Assembly: GCA_014240065.1 (NCBI GenBank)
Contig: JAAZXR010000027.1
Coordinates: forward strand, 21,895 to 58,248
Source: Myxococcales bacterium
GTDB lineage: Bacteria > Myxococcota_A > Polyangia > Nannocystales > Nannocystaceae
Length of the DNA: 36,354 nt
Direction of reading: 5' to 3'
Part shown: piece by piece, positions 8,290 through 28,270 of the stretch
Numbering within the stretch: position 1 is the first letter of the stretch
How the letters are laid out: every line of letters starts with the position of its first letter
Translations under genes and position numbers: made by a program
Notes under the pieces: generated by a model
The model's input: the letters and a program-made list of their open reading frames with translations, nothing else
Told to the model about the DNA's origin: nothing
Databases searched by the model: none

Positions 8290-9023
8290 TTCAAGAGCGC
8301 TTGGACATCCGAGTCGTTCACCACGAGCGAGAAGGTGGGATCGAAGGAGATGGTCTGGAGTTGTTTGTCTCCCCCCCGCTCCTTCACTTCTTGGAGCAGC
8401 GCCTTCGCGCCGTCGATATCGCCAGCCATGCAGGCGAGCTTGGCGAGCTCGAAGGAGGCGGCGGCCGAGTTCGTGTAGCGTTCGCGCGACCACTGGTACA
8501 TCGCCTCGGCTCGCTCTGGGGTCTTGAACAGGCGGGCCGCCCGTCGGTTCACCGCGCGCCCGATGGATCCTTCGGAGCCCCCGAGGTCGAGGGCTTCCTG
8601 GGCAGCGGCGAGCGCGCGCTCGTCCGAGGTGGAGGTGGCGCCGATCTCGCTCATGAGGGCCTTGATCTTGGCGGAGGGATCGTCGGCCGGCCCCGCGAGC
8701 GCGTCGTCGCTCCCGCCGGTGGTGGAACGGGCGGGCGACCCCTCGGCGTCCGCAGGCGCGCCGTCATTTCGGGCGTCGCCTTCGGCGGAGGCGGCGCTGG
8801 TCGGCGCGGCGGTATCGGGCGCCGGCGCCGCCGTGGGCTCGGCCGCCGGCTCGTCGCGCGGGAGGAGATCGTCTCGCGTGGGTGGGGTCGATTTTTCAGC
8901 CTGTGCCGGAGCACTCGCCGCGTCGGTCGGGCGGCTTTCTTGGCGGTTGCACGCGGTGGCGAGCGCGAGCGTCGACGCGCATATCACCGTCGGGCACCAG
9001 GAGGCGAAGCGAGAGCAGAGCAT
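8286..9023 (-). CDS. Lipoprotein with C-terminal TPR-like helices
   Basis: 245 aa from the ATG at 9023. Signal peptide MLCSRFASWCPTVICASTLALATAC with predicted lipid-anchored Cys25, then a long Ala/Pro/Asp-rich disordered linker (about 26-125), then a helical C-terminal domain (SASFELAKLACMAGDIDGAKALLQEVKERGG) resembling tetratricopeptide repeats, which typically mediate protein-protein contacts. No catalytic motif. An alternative in-frame start at 9056 would put extra residues before the signal peptide. The start at 9023 is 5 nt after a good -10 (TAGAAT). It is coupled by a 4-bp overlap to the phosphatase gene. Confidence 0.75.
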   Translation of the reverse strand: MLCSRFASWCPTVICASTLALATACNRQESRPTDAASAPAQAEKSTPPTRDDLLPRDEPAAEPTAAPAPDTAAPTSAASAEGDARNDGAPADAEGSPARSTTGGSDDALAGPADDPSAKIKALMSEIGATSTSDERALAAAQEALDLGGSEGSIGRAVNRRAARLFKTPERAEAMYQWSRERYTNSAAASFELAKLACMAGDIDGAKALLQEVKERGGDKQLQTISFDPTFSLVVNDSDVQALLK

Positions 9024-9028
9024 GGGGC

Positions 9029-9056
9029 ATTCTACCTTCCCCGCTGGCCGTCGCAA
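9029..9056 (-). promoter_or_regulatory. Putative promoter of the lipoprotein-phosphatase operon
   Basis: Minus-strand -35-like TTGCGA (9051-9056), 16-bp spacer, -10 TAGAAT (9029-9034; 5 of 6 matches to TATAAT). The -10 ends 5 nt before the ATG at 9023, so the mRNA would be leaderless. Confidence 0.5.
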
Positions 9057-9121
9057 ACAGCGGGCTCCGGGCCCCCGGACGATGGACGCTGAGGGCGCTG
9101 TGGCCGCCGACGATATCGGAT

Positions 9122-10372
9122 ATGCTCCGCAGGCATATGAGCTTGGCGTCCCTTGTTTTCGGTGTTGGACTCGCGACGGCCGCGACCGCTCCTGTCAGCA
9201 CGGACGACCAAGGAGCCGTGGTTCGGCGAATCTTCGAGGACAACTGCGCGCTCTGCCACGACGGCAGCGAGGGCCTCAACTTGGAGGTCGCGCCCGCGAC
9301 GCTCGTCGGGGTGCGCGGCGCGGCGGGGGAGCCCCTCGTCGTGCCCGGTGATCCGCAAGGGAGTTATTTGCTCCACAAGATTCAAGGCGGCCCGGACCTC
9401 GAAGGGGACGCGATGCCCCTCGGTGAGCCCCCGCTCTCCGCGGAGGACCAACGCGCGGTGCGGGTGTGGATCGCCGGGCTCGAGCCGCTCGACGCCGCAA
9501 CCCCTGAGGACGCGGGGTCTGACCCGGCGAGCTCACGGCCCGTGTTCGGGGGGACCCACCAGCACGGGCTGCATACGACGACCACGCTCGGGAGACGGAT
9601 GTTTGAATTCCGCGTGCATCACCGCTTCGCGCGGTGGGGGCGCCCGTTCGTCGATCGGACGTACTTCGGACTCGCGGGCGGCGCGGTGATGAGCCTCGCC
9701 GTGTCGTATGGGATCATCGACGGCTTGGACATCATGGCCCGGTGGACCAACGAGCGCCTCGCCCACGAGCTTGGGGTGAAGTGGGTGCCGGTGCGCCAGT
9801 CCGCGGGGCAGCCGGTGTCGTTCGGGCTCTACGCGTCCGGCGAGGTGCTCGTAGAACGGGAAGAGAATTCCGCCAATCGCTACACCGGCAACGTGCAGGC
9901 GATGCTCAGCCGGCTTTGGTTTGACCGGTGGGCGACGCAGTTGACCATCGGTTTCTCTGCGCTCACGAACCACGCCCCGGCGCCGCTGTTGACGCGATCC
10001 GATGGCGCGCTCGTGGCCGCGCGTGACAAGCGTGGCACGCTGTATATGGGGCTCGCGTCCACCGTCCTGCTCGGGGCGCGGCGGCGGCACGGAATCGATC
10101 TCGAGTACATGGTGCCGATCCCCGACGGCGCCGACGACTTCAACGTCTTTTATTACGCCGGAGGAGACGCGGATCCTGCGGGCACGGCCTACGGGACATT
10201 TTCCCTCGGGTGGTCCGTGAAGGCGGGCCTGCATTTCTTTCAGGTGCTCGCCTCGACCACGCGCAGCATCCACACGAACTTCTTGGCGCCGGGGGGTGGC
10301 GCTGGCAATCCTTTCGTCCCCATCGGTAATTTTTACCTAGGATTTAACCTGAGCCGGAAATGGAGCTTATAG
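9122..10372 (+). CDS. Cytochrome c-type domain fused to DUF5777-like beta-barrel
   Basis: 416 aa from the ATG at 9122 (signal peptide MLRRHMSLASLVFGVGLATAATA); the ATG at 9137 is an alternative that loses the positive n-region. Residues 30-125 form a PSCyt1-like heme domain: CALCH (Cys42, Cys45, His46), a GDPQGSYLLHKI strand, and an AMPLGEPPLS segment offering an axial Met. From about residue 150 the protein changes to aromatic-rich alternating segments (RMFEFRVHHRFARWG, GGAVMSLAVSYGIIDGLDIMARW) ending in FYLGFNLSRKWSL, typical of DUF5777 outer-membrane barrels. I infer a heme domain tethered to an outer-membrane beta-barrel. It is operonic with the next gene (1-bp gap). Confidence 0.8.
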   Translation: MLRRHMSLASLVFGVGLATAATAPVSTDDQGAVVRRIFEDNCALCHDGSEGLNLEVAPATLVGVRGAAGEPLVVPGDPQGSYLLHKIQGGPDLEGDAMPLGEPPLSAEDQRAVRVWIAGLEPLDAATPEDAGSDPASSRPVFGGTHQHGLHTTTTLGRRMFEFRVHHRFARWGRPFVDRTYFGLAGGAVMSLAVSYGIIDGLDIMARWTNERLAHELGVKWVPVRQSAGQPVSFGLYASGEVLVEREENSANRYTGNVQAMLSRLWFDRWATQLTIGFSALTNHAPAPLLTRSDGALVAARDKRGTLYMGLASTVLLGARRRHGIDLEYMVPIPDGADDFNVFYYAGGDADPAGTAYGTFSLGWSVKAGLHFFQVLASTTRSIHTNFLAPGGGAGNPFVPIGNFYLGFNLSRKWSL

Positions 10373-10373
10373 G

Positions 10374-11162
10374 ATGAGTCGTTCAACGAGCGTCGCCTTC
10401 ACTGCGATCACGATCGCGTTCAGCACGGCGCTCGGATGCGGAGTCGAGGTGCTCGACGATCAGGGCACGGGGCAGGTCCCATTCGCCGTGGAGGCCGCCT
10501 TCGCACGCAGCTGTGTGGCATCGGGCTGTCACAGTTCGGCGCAGCCGGCGGCGGGGCTCTCTCTGTCAGGGGCGGGGCTGCAAGGGCTCGTCGGCGCGGC
10601 GTCTTCGCAGCGGCCCGAGCTCCCGCTGGTCACCATTGGTGATGTCCCCGGCTCCTATATGGCGATCAAGCTGCTGCCCGAGGAGGCGCTCGCGGCGTAT
10701 GGTGTCTCGCGCGCAGCGGGGACGAGCCGCATGCCATTGTCCGGGCTCACCGACGAGGCGCTCGAGGACGTGTCGCTCGTCCTCGGTTGGATCGCTGGGG
10801 CGGAGCTCCCAGCCCCTTCGGGGGATGGCGGTCTGCCCACCGGCGAGAGCTTCCAGGAAGATATCTTTCCAATTTTTCAGGTGAGATGCGGCTGCCATCA
10901 AATTAGCGGCGGCGAGGGCGGGCTCGAGTACAACGCATCGACAGCCTACGGCGCGATCGTCGATCAGCCCGCGTCCATCGCGGGGCTCACCTACGTGGTC
11001 CCGTCGGACCCAGACGCGAGTTATCTGCTCGCCAAAGTGGAGGGCACGCATCTCGCCGTGGGTGGAGACGGCGACTCCATGCCACCCGATCCGCTGGCGC
11101 CTCTCGACGGCGAGGACATCGAGCTTATCCGCACCTGGATCTCCCTGGGTGCCAACCCTTAA
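10374..11162 (+). CDS. Lipoprotein with two cytochrome c-like domains
   Basis: 262 aa. Signal peptide MSRSTSVAFTAITIAFSTALGC with lipid-anchored Cys22. Two PSCyt1-like repeats follow. The first has CVASGCH (Cys47, Cys52, His53; CX4CH spacing), a SYMAIKL strand and candidate Met120 in SRMPLSG. The second has CGCH (Cys172, Cys174, His175; CXCH spacing), SYLLAKV and Met236 in DSMPPDP, ending in LIRTWISLGA. Both heme motifs depart from CX2CH, so heme attachment must be tested. The start lies 1 nt after the stop of the cytochrome-barrel gene, with GGAG about 8 nt upstream, so the two are surely co-expressed. Likely an envelope electron-transfer or metal/redox module; the partner is unknown. Confidence 0.8.
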   Translation: MSRSTSVAFTAITIAFSTALGCGVEVLDDQGTGQVPFAVEAAFARSCVASGCHSSAQPAAGLSLSGAGLQGLVGAASSQRPELPLVTIGDVPGSYMAIKLLPEEALAAYGVSRAAGTSRMPLSGLTDEALEDVSLVLGWIAGAELPAPSGDGGLPTGESFQEDIFPIFQVRCGCHQISGGEGGLEYNASTAYGAIVDQPASIAGLTYVVPSDPDASYLLAKVEGTHLAVGGDGDSMPPDPLAPLDGEDIELIRTWISLGANP

Positions 11163-11278
11163 CCTCGTCGGGCGGGCGGCCGAACGCCGCCTGGCGGCGC
11201 GGATGAGGCCGAATCGACGTCACGAGCGTCCCGTCGACGACCGCAGCGGTGCCTGTGCTCCCCGCCCGGCGGCTGGGG

Positions 11279-11284
11279 TATAGT
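11279..11284 (+). promoter_or_regulatory. Putative -10 element of the response regulator gene
   Basis: TATAGT (5 of 6 matches to TATAAT) ends 7 nt before the ATG at 11292. No convincing -35 is visible. A weak AGGA lies 3 nt before the ATG. Geometry predicts a leader of 0-1 nt. Confidence 0.4.
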
Positions 11285-11291
11285 AGGACGC

Positions 11292-12674
11292 ATGGTGAAA
11301 CTCCAAAACGCAGGTGGCGCGGCGGGGCTCCCCAAGATCCTCATCGTGGACGATGAGGCGCGCGCGCGTGGGGCCCTGGTCGAGTTCTTTGAGGAGGAGG
11401 GCTTTGAGGCGCGCGGGGTCGGTGACGCATACAAGGCGCTCGGGAAGTTCGCGGGTTGGCGGCCCGACATCGTCTTGACCGATTTGGCGATGCCAGGGAT
11501 GAACGGTCTCGAGCTGTTGGCCAAGCTTCGGGTGACGGCCCGCGACGTGCCCGTGGTCATGATGACCGCCTACGGATCCGTTGACAGCGCGATCCAGGCG
11601 CACCGCGAGGGCGCGACCGATTTCATCGTGAAGCCCCTCCAGCTCGATCATGTCCTGCACGTGGTGCGTCGGGCGCTCGAAGAACACTCACTCCACAGTC
11701 GGGCCAACGAGGCTCGACTTGAGCTCTCCAACACTCAATTGGCGGCGTCGATGGGCATGGTAGGCGAGAGCAGCGTGATGACAGCGCTGCTACGCCAGAC
11801 TGTGCTCGCCGCGTCGTCGAGCGCGCACGTCCTCGTCATGGGGGAGCCGGGCACGGGCCGCAGCATGCTCGCGAAGGCGATCCACGATCTCGGCGCGCGT
11901 CGAGATCGCTCGTTCGTAGAGATCACCTGCGCAGGCCAGGGTCCGGCACGGGCGGCGCGGACGCTGTTTGGCTCGGTGGGTGGTGTCGAGGGACGTCGCA
12001 AGGGCGCCGTGGATCGTGCGCGCGGCGGCACCTTGGTCATCGACGAGATCGAGTCGGTACCGGAGAGCATCCAGGCTCGATTGGTGCTGATGCTTGATCA
12101 GGGGTTCTTCGAGCGAGGCGACGAAAAGATCGACATCGACGTACGGCTGATAGGGATCGGGCGCGCGGGAGGCACGCCCAGCCCCGACGTGGGGCGGGTG
12201 CTGCCCGACCTTTATTACGCCATGGGGGTCATGGAGTTGGAGGTGCCCACCCTCCGCGAGCGAGAGCAAGACATCGAGCTGCTCGCGCGTCATTTCTCCC
12301 AGCAGGCGGCTCGGACGCACGGGAAAGGCTATCAGGGGGTCTCACCGCGCGCGATCGTGACCTTGTCTCGCTACGCGTGGCCGGGGAACGTGAGCCAGCT
12401 GCGCGACGCGGTGGCGGCGGCCGTGGCGATCAGCGACGGCGCCGAGATCGAGCCGCGGGCGCTGTCGGATAAAATAAAGCAGCCGGTTCACGGTGGGAGC
12501 CAGGCGCCGGTGATCCCAGGCGCGAAGCTCGATGACATCGAGCGGTGGGCCATCATCAACACCTTGCAGCACACCGGCGGCAACACGGCTCGAACCGCCA
12601 AGATTCTCGGGGTGTCGCCCCGTAAGGTCCAGTATCGCGTCGCGGAATACCGAGAAGACGGTTTGATCGACTAG
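11292..12674 (+). CDS. NtrC-family response regulator with degenerate AAA+ domain
   Basis: 460 aa with the NtrC layout. The receiver domain (about 14-125) is intact: Asp20/Asp21, phosphoacceptor Asp64 in LTDLAMPG, Thr92, Lys114. The central AAA+ domain (about 155-385) is altered: Walker A is GEPGTGRS with Arg190 replacing the nucleotide-binding Lys; the GAFTGA loop that contacts sigma-54 is missing (LFGSVGGVEGRRKGAV instead); the FREDLYYRL motif is VLPDLYYAM, so both arginine-finger positions are lost; the sensor II motif WPGNVREL is WPGNVSQL. Walker B (VIDEIE, Asp251/Glu252) persists. A Fis-type helix-turn-helix is intact at the C-terminus (GGNTARTAKILGVSPRKVQYRV). I infer a phosphorylation-controlled DNA-binding regulator that does not activate sigma-54 polymerase in the usual way. 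No partner histidine kinase is adjacent. The next gene follows 67 bp on. Confidence 0.9.
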   Translation: MVKLQNAGGAAGLPKILIVDDEARARGALVEFFEEEGFEARGVGDAYKALGKFAGWRPDIVLTDLAMPGMNGLELLAKLRVTARDVPVVMMTAYGSVDSAIQAHREGATDFIVKPLQLDHVLHVVRRALEEHSLHSRANEARLELSNTQLAASMGMVGESSVMTALLRQTVLAASSSAHVLVMGEPGTGRSMLAKAIHDLGARRDRSFVEITCAGQGPARAARTLFGSVGGVEGRRKGAVDRARGGTLVIDEIESVPESIQARLVLMLDQGFFERGDEKIDIDVRLIGIGRAGGTPSPDVGRVLPDLYYAMGVMELEVPTLREREQDIELLARHFSQQAARTHGKGYQGVSPRAIVTLSRYAWPGNVSQLRDAVAAAVAISDGAEIEPRALSDKIKQPVHGGSQAPVIPGAKLDDIERWAIINTLQHTGGNTARTAKILGVSPRKVQYRVAEYREDGLID

Positions 12675-15687: not shown

Positions 15688-16437
15688 TCAGGCGCGGCGG
15701 CGCTGAGTCTGAGGCGAGGGGGCGAGCCACGCGCGCACGGCCGGCGCGAAACTCAGCGGCACGAGTCCGACCAGCGCCGCGCCGAATGCGAGGGCGTCGC
15801 TGGGGAGCGGCGTCGCCGGGGTCCACGGCGAAGACGTGAACGGGAGGGCTGGCGCGAATTCTCCGAACAGGCCGTGCGCGAGACAGGCGGCCGAGATCCC
15901 GACCAAGGGCAGCAGCCCCCAGGTCTTCCCGCGGGCGAGGCCGAACGCGGCCATGGCGGCCATGCCGAGCATCGCGAAGGTCAGGGCCTCGGGCTTGGGA
16001 GCGAACAAATACATGACCAGCAGCGGGAAGGTGGATCCCGCCGATTTGAAGGCTCGCCGCATCAGCACCAAGGATTCATCTTGAAAGTTCCACCGCTCCT
16101 TCGTGTACTCGCTGTACTCGTACCGTGAGGCCATGCCCTCGCCCATGAGCATGAGCGCGACGAGCGCGTGGGTCCCCCCAAAGAACAAGAGGATCGGCTC
16201 GAAGCCCATTTGCAGCATCAAGAGCAAAAACACGGAGCCGAAGTTGCCGATCCCCATGGCGAACCACCGCGCCCAAAACCACTCGGCGGCCAAGCCAAAG
16301 AAGGCGACCCCGTAGCAGAGGGAGAGCCCCATATACAGGCCAAAGGTCTCCGACGGGCCGAGCAGGGCGACCATGGAGAGCTGGCTGAAGAAGAAGCCGA
16401 GGATGAGGAGGACGATGGCTTTGCGGACGCCGACCAT
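15688..16437 (-). CDS. Polytopic inner-membrane protein, unknown function
   Basis: 249 aa with about six or seven hydrophobic segments: AIVLLILGFFFSQLSMVALL; LSLCYGVAFFGLAAEWFWA; FGSVFLLLMLQMG; ILLFFGGTHALVALML; a loop with YEYSEYTKERWNFQDESLVLMRRAF; then LLVMYLFA, FAMLGMAAMAAFGLA and two more near the C-terminus, ending in a basic tail (SPQTQRRRA). I do not recognise the family. Aromatic residues cluster at the membrane edges, as in real membrane proteins. The ATG at 16437 lies 6 nt after a -10-like TAGTCT. Confidence 0.7.
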   Translation of the reverse strand: MVGVRKAIVLLILGFFFSQLSMVALLGPSETFGLYMGLSLCYGVAFFGLAAEWFWARWFAMGIGNFGSVFLLLMLQMGFEPILLFFGGTHALVALMLMGEGMASRYEYSEYTKERWNFQDESLVLMRRAFKSAGSTFPLLVMYLFAPKPEALTFAMLGMAAMAAFGLARGKTWGLLPLVGISAACLAHGLFGEFAPALPFTSSPWTPATPLPSDALAFGAALVGLVPLSFAPAVRAWLAPSPQTQRRRA

Positions 16438-26333: not shown

Positions 26334-27344
26334 CTACGGTGTGACAGCGATGTCGCGTCCACGCATGGGCAGGTCGACGTGCACCGGGCAGTGGTCGCTG
26401 AAGGTCTCAAACGAGGTGTCTGGGTAGGCGTCCGTGGAGCGCAAGGACTCGCAGGCGTTGGCGGCGCAGTGCCCTCCGGCGTGGGCGAGCGGCGGTGGTC
26501 GCCCTTCGAAGCCCCGCACGAACACGAGGTCGAGCAAGGACGGCTCTTTCCAAGCGTCGCGCCGGGGTCCGTCCCAGTAGGCCGAGCAGCCATCCTCGAC
26601 GGGGATTCTTTGAAGGCCGGTCTGGGCGAGCGCGCCCTCGAGGGCGTTGAGCTCTTCGCGGGCGGTGCGCCCCTCGCCGCCGACCGGGTTGAAGTCGCCG
26701 AGCACGATGACCCGCGCCGCGGCGCGACTGACGATGTTCGCGAGCTGTACCCACTGTCGTTGTCGCAGCGCGGCGCCCTTGGGCATCGCCTTGAGGTGCA
26801 CCACGATGGCGTCGAAGCGCTCGTCGGAGGCCCGCACGCGGAAGGTCTGCGCGAAGGCAGGGCGCACCCGGCCGCCCGCGGTCAGCTCACGGTGTTCGCG
26901 GGGGGCGCCGACGGGCGCGAGGTGGGTCGGGTCGTAGGCGAATCCGAGCCGCTGGTGTCCTTTGCCGCCGCCCTTGGAGAGCAGGAGGGTCTTGCCAGGC
27001 AGGCGGGCGCGAAGCTCGTCTGGTTGTTTGATCTCCTGCACGGCGACGAGCGACGCTCGCAGCGCGCGGACATTGTCGGCCACGCCCTCCAGGTCTTGGC
27101 CGCGGCCCGGAAAGTTGCGCAGGTTCCACGTGGCCACGCGCAGCGCGCCGCCCGGCGGGAGCGCAGACGCGGTGAGGGAGCGCCGGCTGGGTGGCCACGT
27201 GGGCTCCCATCCGCACCGCTGCGCGATCACGCCACCGATCGTGAGGACGATGGCGATCAGCCACAGCGTCCGTCGCAGCGTGACGCGGAGCCTCTTGATA
27301 GATCCGCGCATGGAGCGTCTGCGTCTGCGTCTTCGTTTGGCCAT
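26334..27344 (-). CDS. Endonuclease/exonuclease/phosphatase family protein
   Basis: 336 aa from the ATG at 27344 (MAKRRRRRRRS). A very basic N-terminus precedes a hydrophobic segment (TLWLIAIVLTIGGVIAQRCG), so the enzyme is probably membrane-anchored or exported. EEP-fold motifs in order: LRVATWNLRNF (metal/Asn), LVAVQEIK (metal-binding Glu), FDAIVVHLKA, VIVLGDFNPVG (Asp/Asn) and FSDHCPVHVDL (Asp/His). Substrate could be DNA, RNA, sphingomyelin or phosphoinositide; the sequence does not decide. An in-frame ATG at 27443 would lie within the rpsU terminator and is rejected. The ATG at 27311 is another option; no Shine-Dalgarno precedes either. Confidence 0.88.
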   Translation of the reverse strand: MAKRRRRRRRSMRGSIKRLRVTLRRTLWLIAIVLTIGGVIAQRCGWEPTWPPSRRSLTASALPPGGALRVATWNLRNFPGRGQDLEGVADNVRALRASLVAVQEIKQPDELRARLPGKTLLLSKGGGKGHQRLGFAYDPTHLAPVGAPREHRELTAGGRVRPAFAQTFRVRASDERFDAIVVHLKAMPKGAALRQRQWVQLANIVSRAAARVIVLGDFNPVGGEGRTAREELNALEGALAQTGLQRIPVEDGCSAYWDGPRRDAWKEPSLLDLVFVRGFEGRPPPLAHAGGHCAANACESLRSTDAYPDTSFETFSDHCPVHVDLPMRGRDIAVTP

Positions 27345-27441
27345 GGGGTGGGGGGATCGTCGTGAGGGTCGCGCCGACGGCCGCGACCGGTCCTGTACTT
27401 CATCGACGAGCGCATCATCGAGCGTATCGCCCCACCAATGC

Positions 27442-27469
27442 AAAAACCCGGCCGGGGCCGGGTTTTTTT
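27442..27469. terminator. Bidirectional terminator after rpsU
   Basis: Perfect inverted repeat AAAAACCCGGCC/GGCCGGGTTTTT, with T-runs on both strands. It lies 19 bp beyond the rpsU stop (minus strand) and upstream of the EEP-fold gene, so it ends rpsU transcription. No plus-strand gene uses it. Confidence 0.9.
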
Positions 27470-27801: not shown

Positions 27802-28270
27802 CCCCGTCCGGGCGCATTTCTTAAGGGGCTGGTGGTGATTTAGGGGCTCTGGTGTCAGCACAGAGACGGGCGTGCGGGGCGTGCGTGACGCGTCGTTGGG
27901 GAGTGCGCAGACAGTGCGCGGCGAGCGCGCGCCCACCCCGTGTCTGAGAGATAGGTGCTCGTCGGGTGCGAGGTGTGGGGCTTCCGCGAGGAGGTTTCAC
28001 ATGGCGGGAACTACCGGCGCCGCGTGGGAACGCGTCTCGCGAATGGCCAGTGGGCGCGCCGACCCGCGAACTGCCAGGGAGCCTCGAAACCGCCCAGGGA
28101 GCCTGTAAACGCCTAAAAAAACGGTTTGAACGAGACACGGGCGCCAGCGTCGCGGTCGCGGGCGGGGAGCGTCGCGGGCTCGGCGTTGCTCGCTCGGCGT
28201 TTGTTGGGCGCCTCCCCAGCGTGTGGGCTTCGGCCGGGGCTCGGTTTCAGGGCGACGAATGTGATTCCTG
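27802..28270. other. Non-coding interval between rpsU and the Lon-N gene
   Basis: No convincing gene on either strand: open frames here are Arg/Pro/Ala-rich GC shadows. One imperfect direct repeat is visible: CCAGGGAGCCT at 28074-28084 and again at 28094-28104 (20-bp period), followed by similar AAACCG/AAACGC. No tRNA or recognisable riboswitch was found. Confidence 0.6.

Follow-up and report, generated by a model that had tools for sequence, protein, structure and literature searches.

The window, that is, the whole 36,354-nt stretch of Myxococcales DNA analysed here, carries at 11292–12674 on the forward strand an open reading frame that starts with ATG and contains zero internal stops. The features of this gene are as follows, with the evidence in brackets.

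11279 to 11284, + strand: TATAGT, a possible but unproven −10 element 7 nt 5′ of the ATG, perhaps giving a leaderless transcript (sequence)
11292 to 12674, + strand: degenerate NtrC-type response regulator, a probable NmpR-family paralog, 460 aa (ORF, translation, Pfam, tree)
11334 to 11666, + strand: receiver domain, residues 15–125, with D20/D21, the phospho-acceptor D64, T92 and K114 intact (Pfam, family alignment)
11757 to 12251, + strand: degenerate AAA+ core, residues 156–320 (Pfam Sigma54_activat, AlphaFold2 model)
11841 to 11861, + strand: Walker A, GEPGTGR, with Lys changed to Arg190 at codon 11859–11861 (translation, family alignment)
11970 to 12020, + strand: shortened L1 region at the GAFTGA position, GSVGGVEGRRKGAVDRA (alignments)
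12033 to 12047, + strand: Walker B, LVIDE, intact, with D251 and E252 (family alignment)
12198 to 12224, + strand: arginine-finger helix, VLPDLYYAM, with both Arg lost (L304, A310) (family alignment)
12255 to 12491, + strand: AAA+ lid, residues 322–400 (Pfam AAA_lid_14)
12378 to 12401, + strand: sensor II within the lid, WPGNVSQL, with S368 in place of Arg (family alignment)
12525 to 12656, + strand: Fis-type HTH (HTH_8), whose recognition helix VSPRKVQYRVAEY resembles the family's ISPRKIQYRLxEY (Pfam, alignment)

The Pfam matches (Response_reg, 16–125; Sigma54_activat, 156–316; AAA_lid_14, 322–400; HTH_8, 413–453) all exceed the cut-off. A two-hexamer scan for a σ70 promoter at the gene found none. 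Upstream on the same strand lie genes for a cytochrome-c-like protein with a DUF5777 beta-barrel (8882–10372) and, directly adjacent to the regulator, for a secreted or lipoprotein-like protein with cysteine–histidine (heme-type) motifs (10374–11162).

The preliminary description had read four losses in the AAA+ core together with an intact receiver and DNA-binding domain, and the alignments bear out all of these. Specifically, the Walker A Lys is replaced by Arg190 (GEPGTGR-S); residues 224–247 (TLFGSVGGVEGRRKGAVDRARGGT) contain no GAFTGA and form a loop 4 residues shorter than in canonical members; both arginine-finger positions are replaced, by L304 and A310; and the sensor II Arg is replaced by S368. 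In addition, sensor I reads IGIGRA, versus the usual AATNR. The core is not changed throughout, since the Walker B residues D251 and E252 are kept. Chance, sequencing error and frameshift as the source of these changes are ruled out by the single clean frame and by the location of the changes at motif positions. In an AlphaFold2 model built from a 59-row alignment (mean pLDDT 87.3), the AAA+ fold is retained, and low confidence is confined to the N-terminus (1–10) and to residues 294–301, directly before the finger helix. The closest full-length structures found by Foldseek are those of NtrX, NtrC1, LuxO, NtrC4 and VpsR.

The window protein has 57 matches in its own genome, mostly single receivers, the best NtrC-type protein among them sharing 37% identity. 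Its nearest relatives lie in other genomes, at 39–44% identity and E values down to 1e-114, and occur in 26 of 39 relatives; across the class, 144 of 290 genomes have family matches at E ≤ 1e-88. The family shares a distinctive HTH, GGSTSKAAxILGISxRKIQYxLxEY. In the tree the window protein falls within the part formed by its own taxonomic family (f1), together with homologs from genus g11; its branch is very long, at 2.3 changes per site, which leaves its exact position unsure. The AAA+ part has diverged most: identity to the g11 homologs is 53% in the receiver, 30% in the AAA+ part and 65% in the HTH, for comparison with 68, 49 and 83% between g7 and g11. The protein is probably a diverged paralog of NmpR-type response regulators. 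The ortholog collection proposed earlier as a conservation check yielded the homologs and the residue series described below but no close ortholog of the window protein, which was searched for among the relatives, where the genus mate's genome is just 54% complete. The window neighbours show essentially no synteny with the homolog loci; one match found in this search, of window gene 15688–16437 in G015, is not repeated in the sister genomes of G015 and was discarded.

In many genomes the family regulator adjoins a receiver-PAS histidine kinase, a protoglobin histidine kinase or both, and in other classes of the phylum the protoglobin kinase ends ~50–100 bp before the regulator. Because these neighbours match the make-up of NmpRSTU, an oxygen-sensing system of Myxococcus xanthus with NmpU as the modelled heme-based oxygen sensor and NmpR as the activator of σ54 promoters at GCGCA-N5-TGCGC boxes (PMC11841059, PMC6211767), we infer from architecture, gene neighbours and the box test below that the family is NmpR-like. 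The window protein has the same receiver–AAA+–Fis HTH layout, with D-33-V and D-50-KP spacings equal to those of NmpR D54/V87/K104, and its homologs have NmpR-type boxes upstream and kinase neighbours, of the protoglobin and receiver-HK types, that correspond to NmpU and NmpS. However, M. xanthus NmpR (MXAN_4240) requires a σ54 site, whereas in the window protein GAFTGA is absent and the Walker A Lys, the two fingers and the sensor II Arg are replaced; no kinase gene adjoins it, and in the window it is linked to neither a protoglobin kinase nor a receiver-HK.

The window gene is one of two family copies found in its genome and stands apart from the conserved locus. That locus, on a different contig (L115), encodes an NmpS-like receiver-PAS kinase (L115:10697–12241, − strand), an NmpU-like protoglobin kinase and a degenerate family member (L003). 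L003 has lost the Walker B acids along with both fingers; like the window protein it reads LP in the finger motif, and the AU test (p 0.40) leaves room for a sister grouping of these two same-genome paralogs without establishing it. The kinase cores of L115 look intact. The protoglobin kinase (L115:12960–14222, − strand) gives a weak protoglobin match (E 9e-8 vs 1e-31 in a relative), and Ala occupies its conserved proximal-His column while the preceding residue is His (RSRAVMHAVE vs RSRIGRVHVE), a possible natural loss of heme sensing; in M. xanthus NmpU, the H96A substitution was introduced to abolish heme binding (PMC11841059). With this kinase and the degenerate L003, the nmp-type system of this genome has drifted at its input as well as at its output. 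A homolog of the 10374–11162 protein lies ~8 kb from the nmp-type locus (L115:18759–19082). Elsewhere in the taxonomic family, genome G006 (93% complete) contains an NmpS-like kinase and no family regulator at E ≤ 1e-70.

To place the losses, we counted residues in 106 family rows, of which 31 lie inside f1, 74 lie outside and one was set aside, the f1 duplicate L148_9070 (same gene as L058), which had been binned by script as outside f1. The receiver residues D64, T92 and K114 are present in all 106. By contrast with the family, the Walker A Lys is missing from the window protein alone (1/106) and the two arginine fingers from no member but it and L003 (2/106), so its losses are not a matter of chance; its exact substitution set is found in no other member. 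Outside f1, all but two of the members carry a GAFTGA-type motif (72 of 74), the exceptions being L174 and L177 (f4/g50). These two, from another family, represent an independent loss (GALPGS, GALAGS), accompanied by loss of the second arginine finger. Inside f1, GAFTGA is lost in 24 of 31 members, the Walker B Glu in 18 and the Walker B Asp in 13, and the intermediate motifs GAFAGA and GAFPGA are seen. On a tree computed with the motif columns removed, parsimony gives 4 changes of GAFTGA state. Absence of rpoN does not account for these losses, since σ54 is encoded in all 19 good-quality f1 genomes, the window's genome included. A second, fragmentary match to the σ54 DNA-binding domain (G000:C158:25575–25838) has an in-frame TAG.

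The preliminary description held that orthologs with normal motifs would mark this gene as a decaying copy. The finding is divided: homologs outside the taxonomic family are normal, but most inside it lack the σ54 loop. Many of the latter also lack the Walker B Glu, yet they are under purifying selection (dN/dS 0.09–0.29 for GAFTGA-less pairs and 0.06–0.07 for intact pairs, that is, constrained but less so). Since most same-family homologs share the GAFTGA loss, with such pairs constrained, the window protein is neither a solitary invention nor a plainly dying copy; its gene is the extreme case of the family series.

The DNA boxes follow a parallel pattern. A search for GCGCA-N5-TGCGC with ≤1 mismatch within 330 bp upstream of nmpR-family genes found boxes at 22 of 54 genes, versus 3.4 in shuffles. 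A −24/−12-like σ54 site follows the box at 10 of 12 box-bearing loci outside f1 and at 1 of 10 inside (Fisher p 0.002, which is optimistic because related loci are not independent). When all loci are considered, σ54 sites occur in the last 200 bp at 11 of 23 outside f1 (0.84 expected) and at 2 of 28 inside (0.88 expected). In f1 the σ54 promoter seems to have disappeared while the NmpR box stayed in place. L058 and L109 (the second copy in g12) pair a strongly degenerate regulator with a near-perfect σ54 promoter-like site upstream (TGGCACG-N4-TTGCT). No NmpR-type box with ≤1 mismatch lies upstream of the window gene or L003, and boxes show no clear excess across the window's genome (28 vs 20 in the control), no excess in the window at 2 mismatches (63 found vs 67 expected) and none at the L003 locus. 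The sole perfect NmpR-type box in the window (27905–27919, GCGCAGACAGTGCGC) lies ~460 bp upstream of an ORF for an endonuclease/exonuclease/phosphatase-family protein (26334–27443, − strand).

GAFTGA-less NtrC proteins that work at σ70 promoters are documented, and the Walker motifs are kept there (PMC10274813). Like the NtrC proteins of Rhodobacter capsulatus and Caulobacter, the window protein combines an L1-loop deletion with a retained receiver and HTH and presumably acts at σ70 promoters; unlike them, it has lost the Walker A Lys, the fingers and sensor II, whereas they keep Walker A and Walker B, both of which Caulobacter NtrC needs (PMC10274813). VpsR of Vibrio cholerae, a degenerate NtrC-type regulator of σ70 promoters, is reported to be ATP-independent (PMC10274813) and is among the closest folds (7v2b, TMq 0.54); VpsR itself binds c-di-GMP. 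The best full-length structural match, Brucella abortus NtrX (5m7n/5m7p), is only 28–29% identical to the window protein and contains bound ATP or ADP.

We favour, with a probability of roughly 0.6, the reading that the window protein is a non-ATPase, σ54-independent, phosphorylation-switched DNA-binding dimer that diverged from NmpR-type regulators. ATP-driven σ54 remodelling is very unlikely, given that GAFTGA and the Walker A Lys are gone, as are the fingers and the sensor II Arg; with Walker B intact, some nucleotide binding may persist. As conservation is highest in the receiver and HTH, a phosphorylation-controlled DNA binder with the AAA+ domain as a relay would fit. The domain make-up, the residue losses, membership of the family, the family-wide disappearance of the σ54 loop and the constraint on other GAFTGA-less members are computed results, whereas we infer the absence of ATPase activity, the kinase partner, the DNA sites and the direction of regulation along the following lines. 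A histidine kinase, for which the NmpS-like receiver-PAS kinase elsewhere in the genome is a candidate, would phosphorylate D64; the change in the receiver would be relayed through the AAA+ domain, structurally intact and catalytically dead, as a dimerisation and relay module; and the Fis-type HTH would bind palindromic sites and act at σ70-type promoters or block other regulators. The preliminary description had proposed a non-ATPase scaffold binding DNA under phosphorylation control; the conserved receiver and HTH, the lost ATPase residues and the kept fold speak for such a binder, with the scaffold role a supposition.

With no close ortholog found, the main rival is decay, in which selection on an nmpR-type gene eased after its duplication and the substitutions mark its way to becoming a pseudogene. 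The very long branch, the second degenerate paralog in the same genome alongside a drifted NmpU-like kinase, the small genome (4.7 Mb) and the lack of a linked kinase and an upstream box agree with it, but 460 codons have stayed open and all receiver catalytic residues and the HTH core have been kept after ~2 changes per site, the losses cluster in the AAA+ part, the structural model is confident and other GAFTGA-less members are under purifying selection, so we regard decay as unlikely. Less probable still is an accessory subunit or antagonist that forms mixed dimers or rings with an NtrC-type protein of the same genome, or competes for its DNA sites, and reduces its activity in a dominant-negative manner: although the genome encodes several GAFTGA-bearing NtrC-type regulators and σ54, an intact and a degenerate family copy coexist in genus g10, and the recognition helix is nearly unchanged, no active same-family partner was found, as L003, the sole other family member found in the genome, is itself degenerate. 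ATP binding without hydrolysis as a switch at σ70 promoters, with Arg replacing Lys beside the retained D251/E252, has a precedent in R. capsulatus NtrC, which lacks GAFTGA and requires ATP binding and not hydrolysis (PMC10274813), but it is highly improbable with changes at sensor I, sensor II and both fingers as well as at the Walker A Lys, and with the equivalent Lys mutation, K178A, inactivating Caulobacter NtrC (PMC10274813).

For the family as a whole, the data suggest, as a tentative proposal, that in one myxobacteria-like family an oxygen-linked regulator was repeatedly converted (at least 4 state changes) from a σ54 ATPase activator into a σ54-independent one that kept its old DNA boxes, and that this change would have run its full course in the window protein, a pseudo-ATPase still functional after giving up sensor I and sensor II, the Walker A Lys and the fingers. 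The family-wide pattern, repeated loss of the σ54 motor in oxygen-linked regulators with boxes kept, is of more interest than the single gene. GAFTGA-less NtrC proteins have so far been known singly; here a single family in related genomes runs the full range between an intact motor and a dead one, and the DNA box and σ54 promoter can be traced beside the loss of the motor. The series makes a switch from σ54 to another polymerase form directly testable, and it raises the question of what role an AAA+ domain plays once it no longer burns ATP. Outside the NmpR-like family, L074 of Anaeromyxobacter oryzae (match 10001–11302) is a GAFTGA-less receiver–AAA+ regulator with a different HTH.
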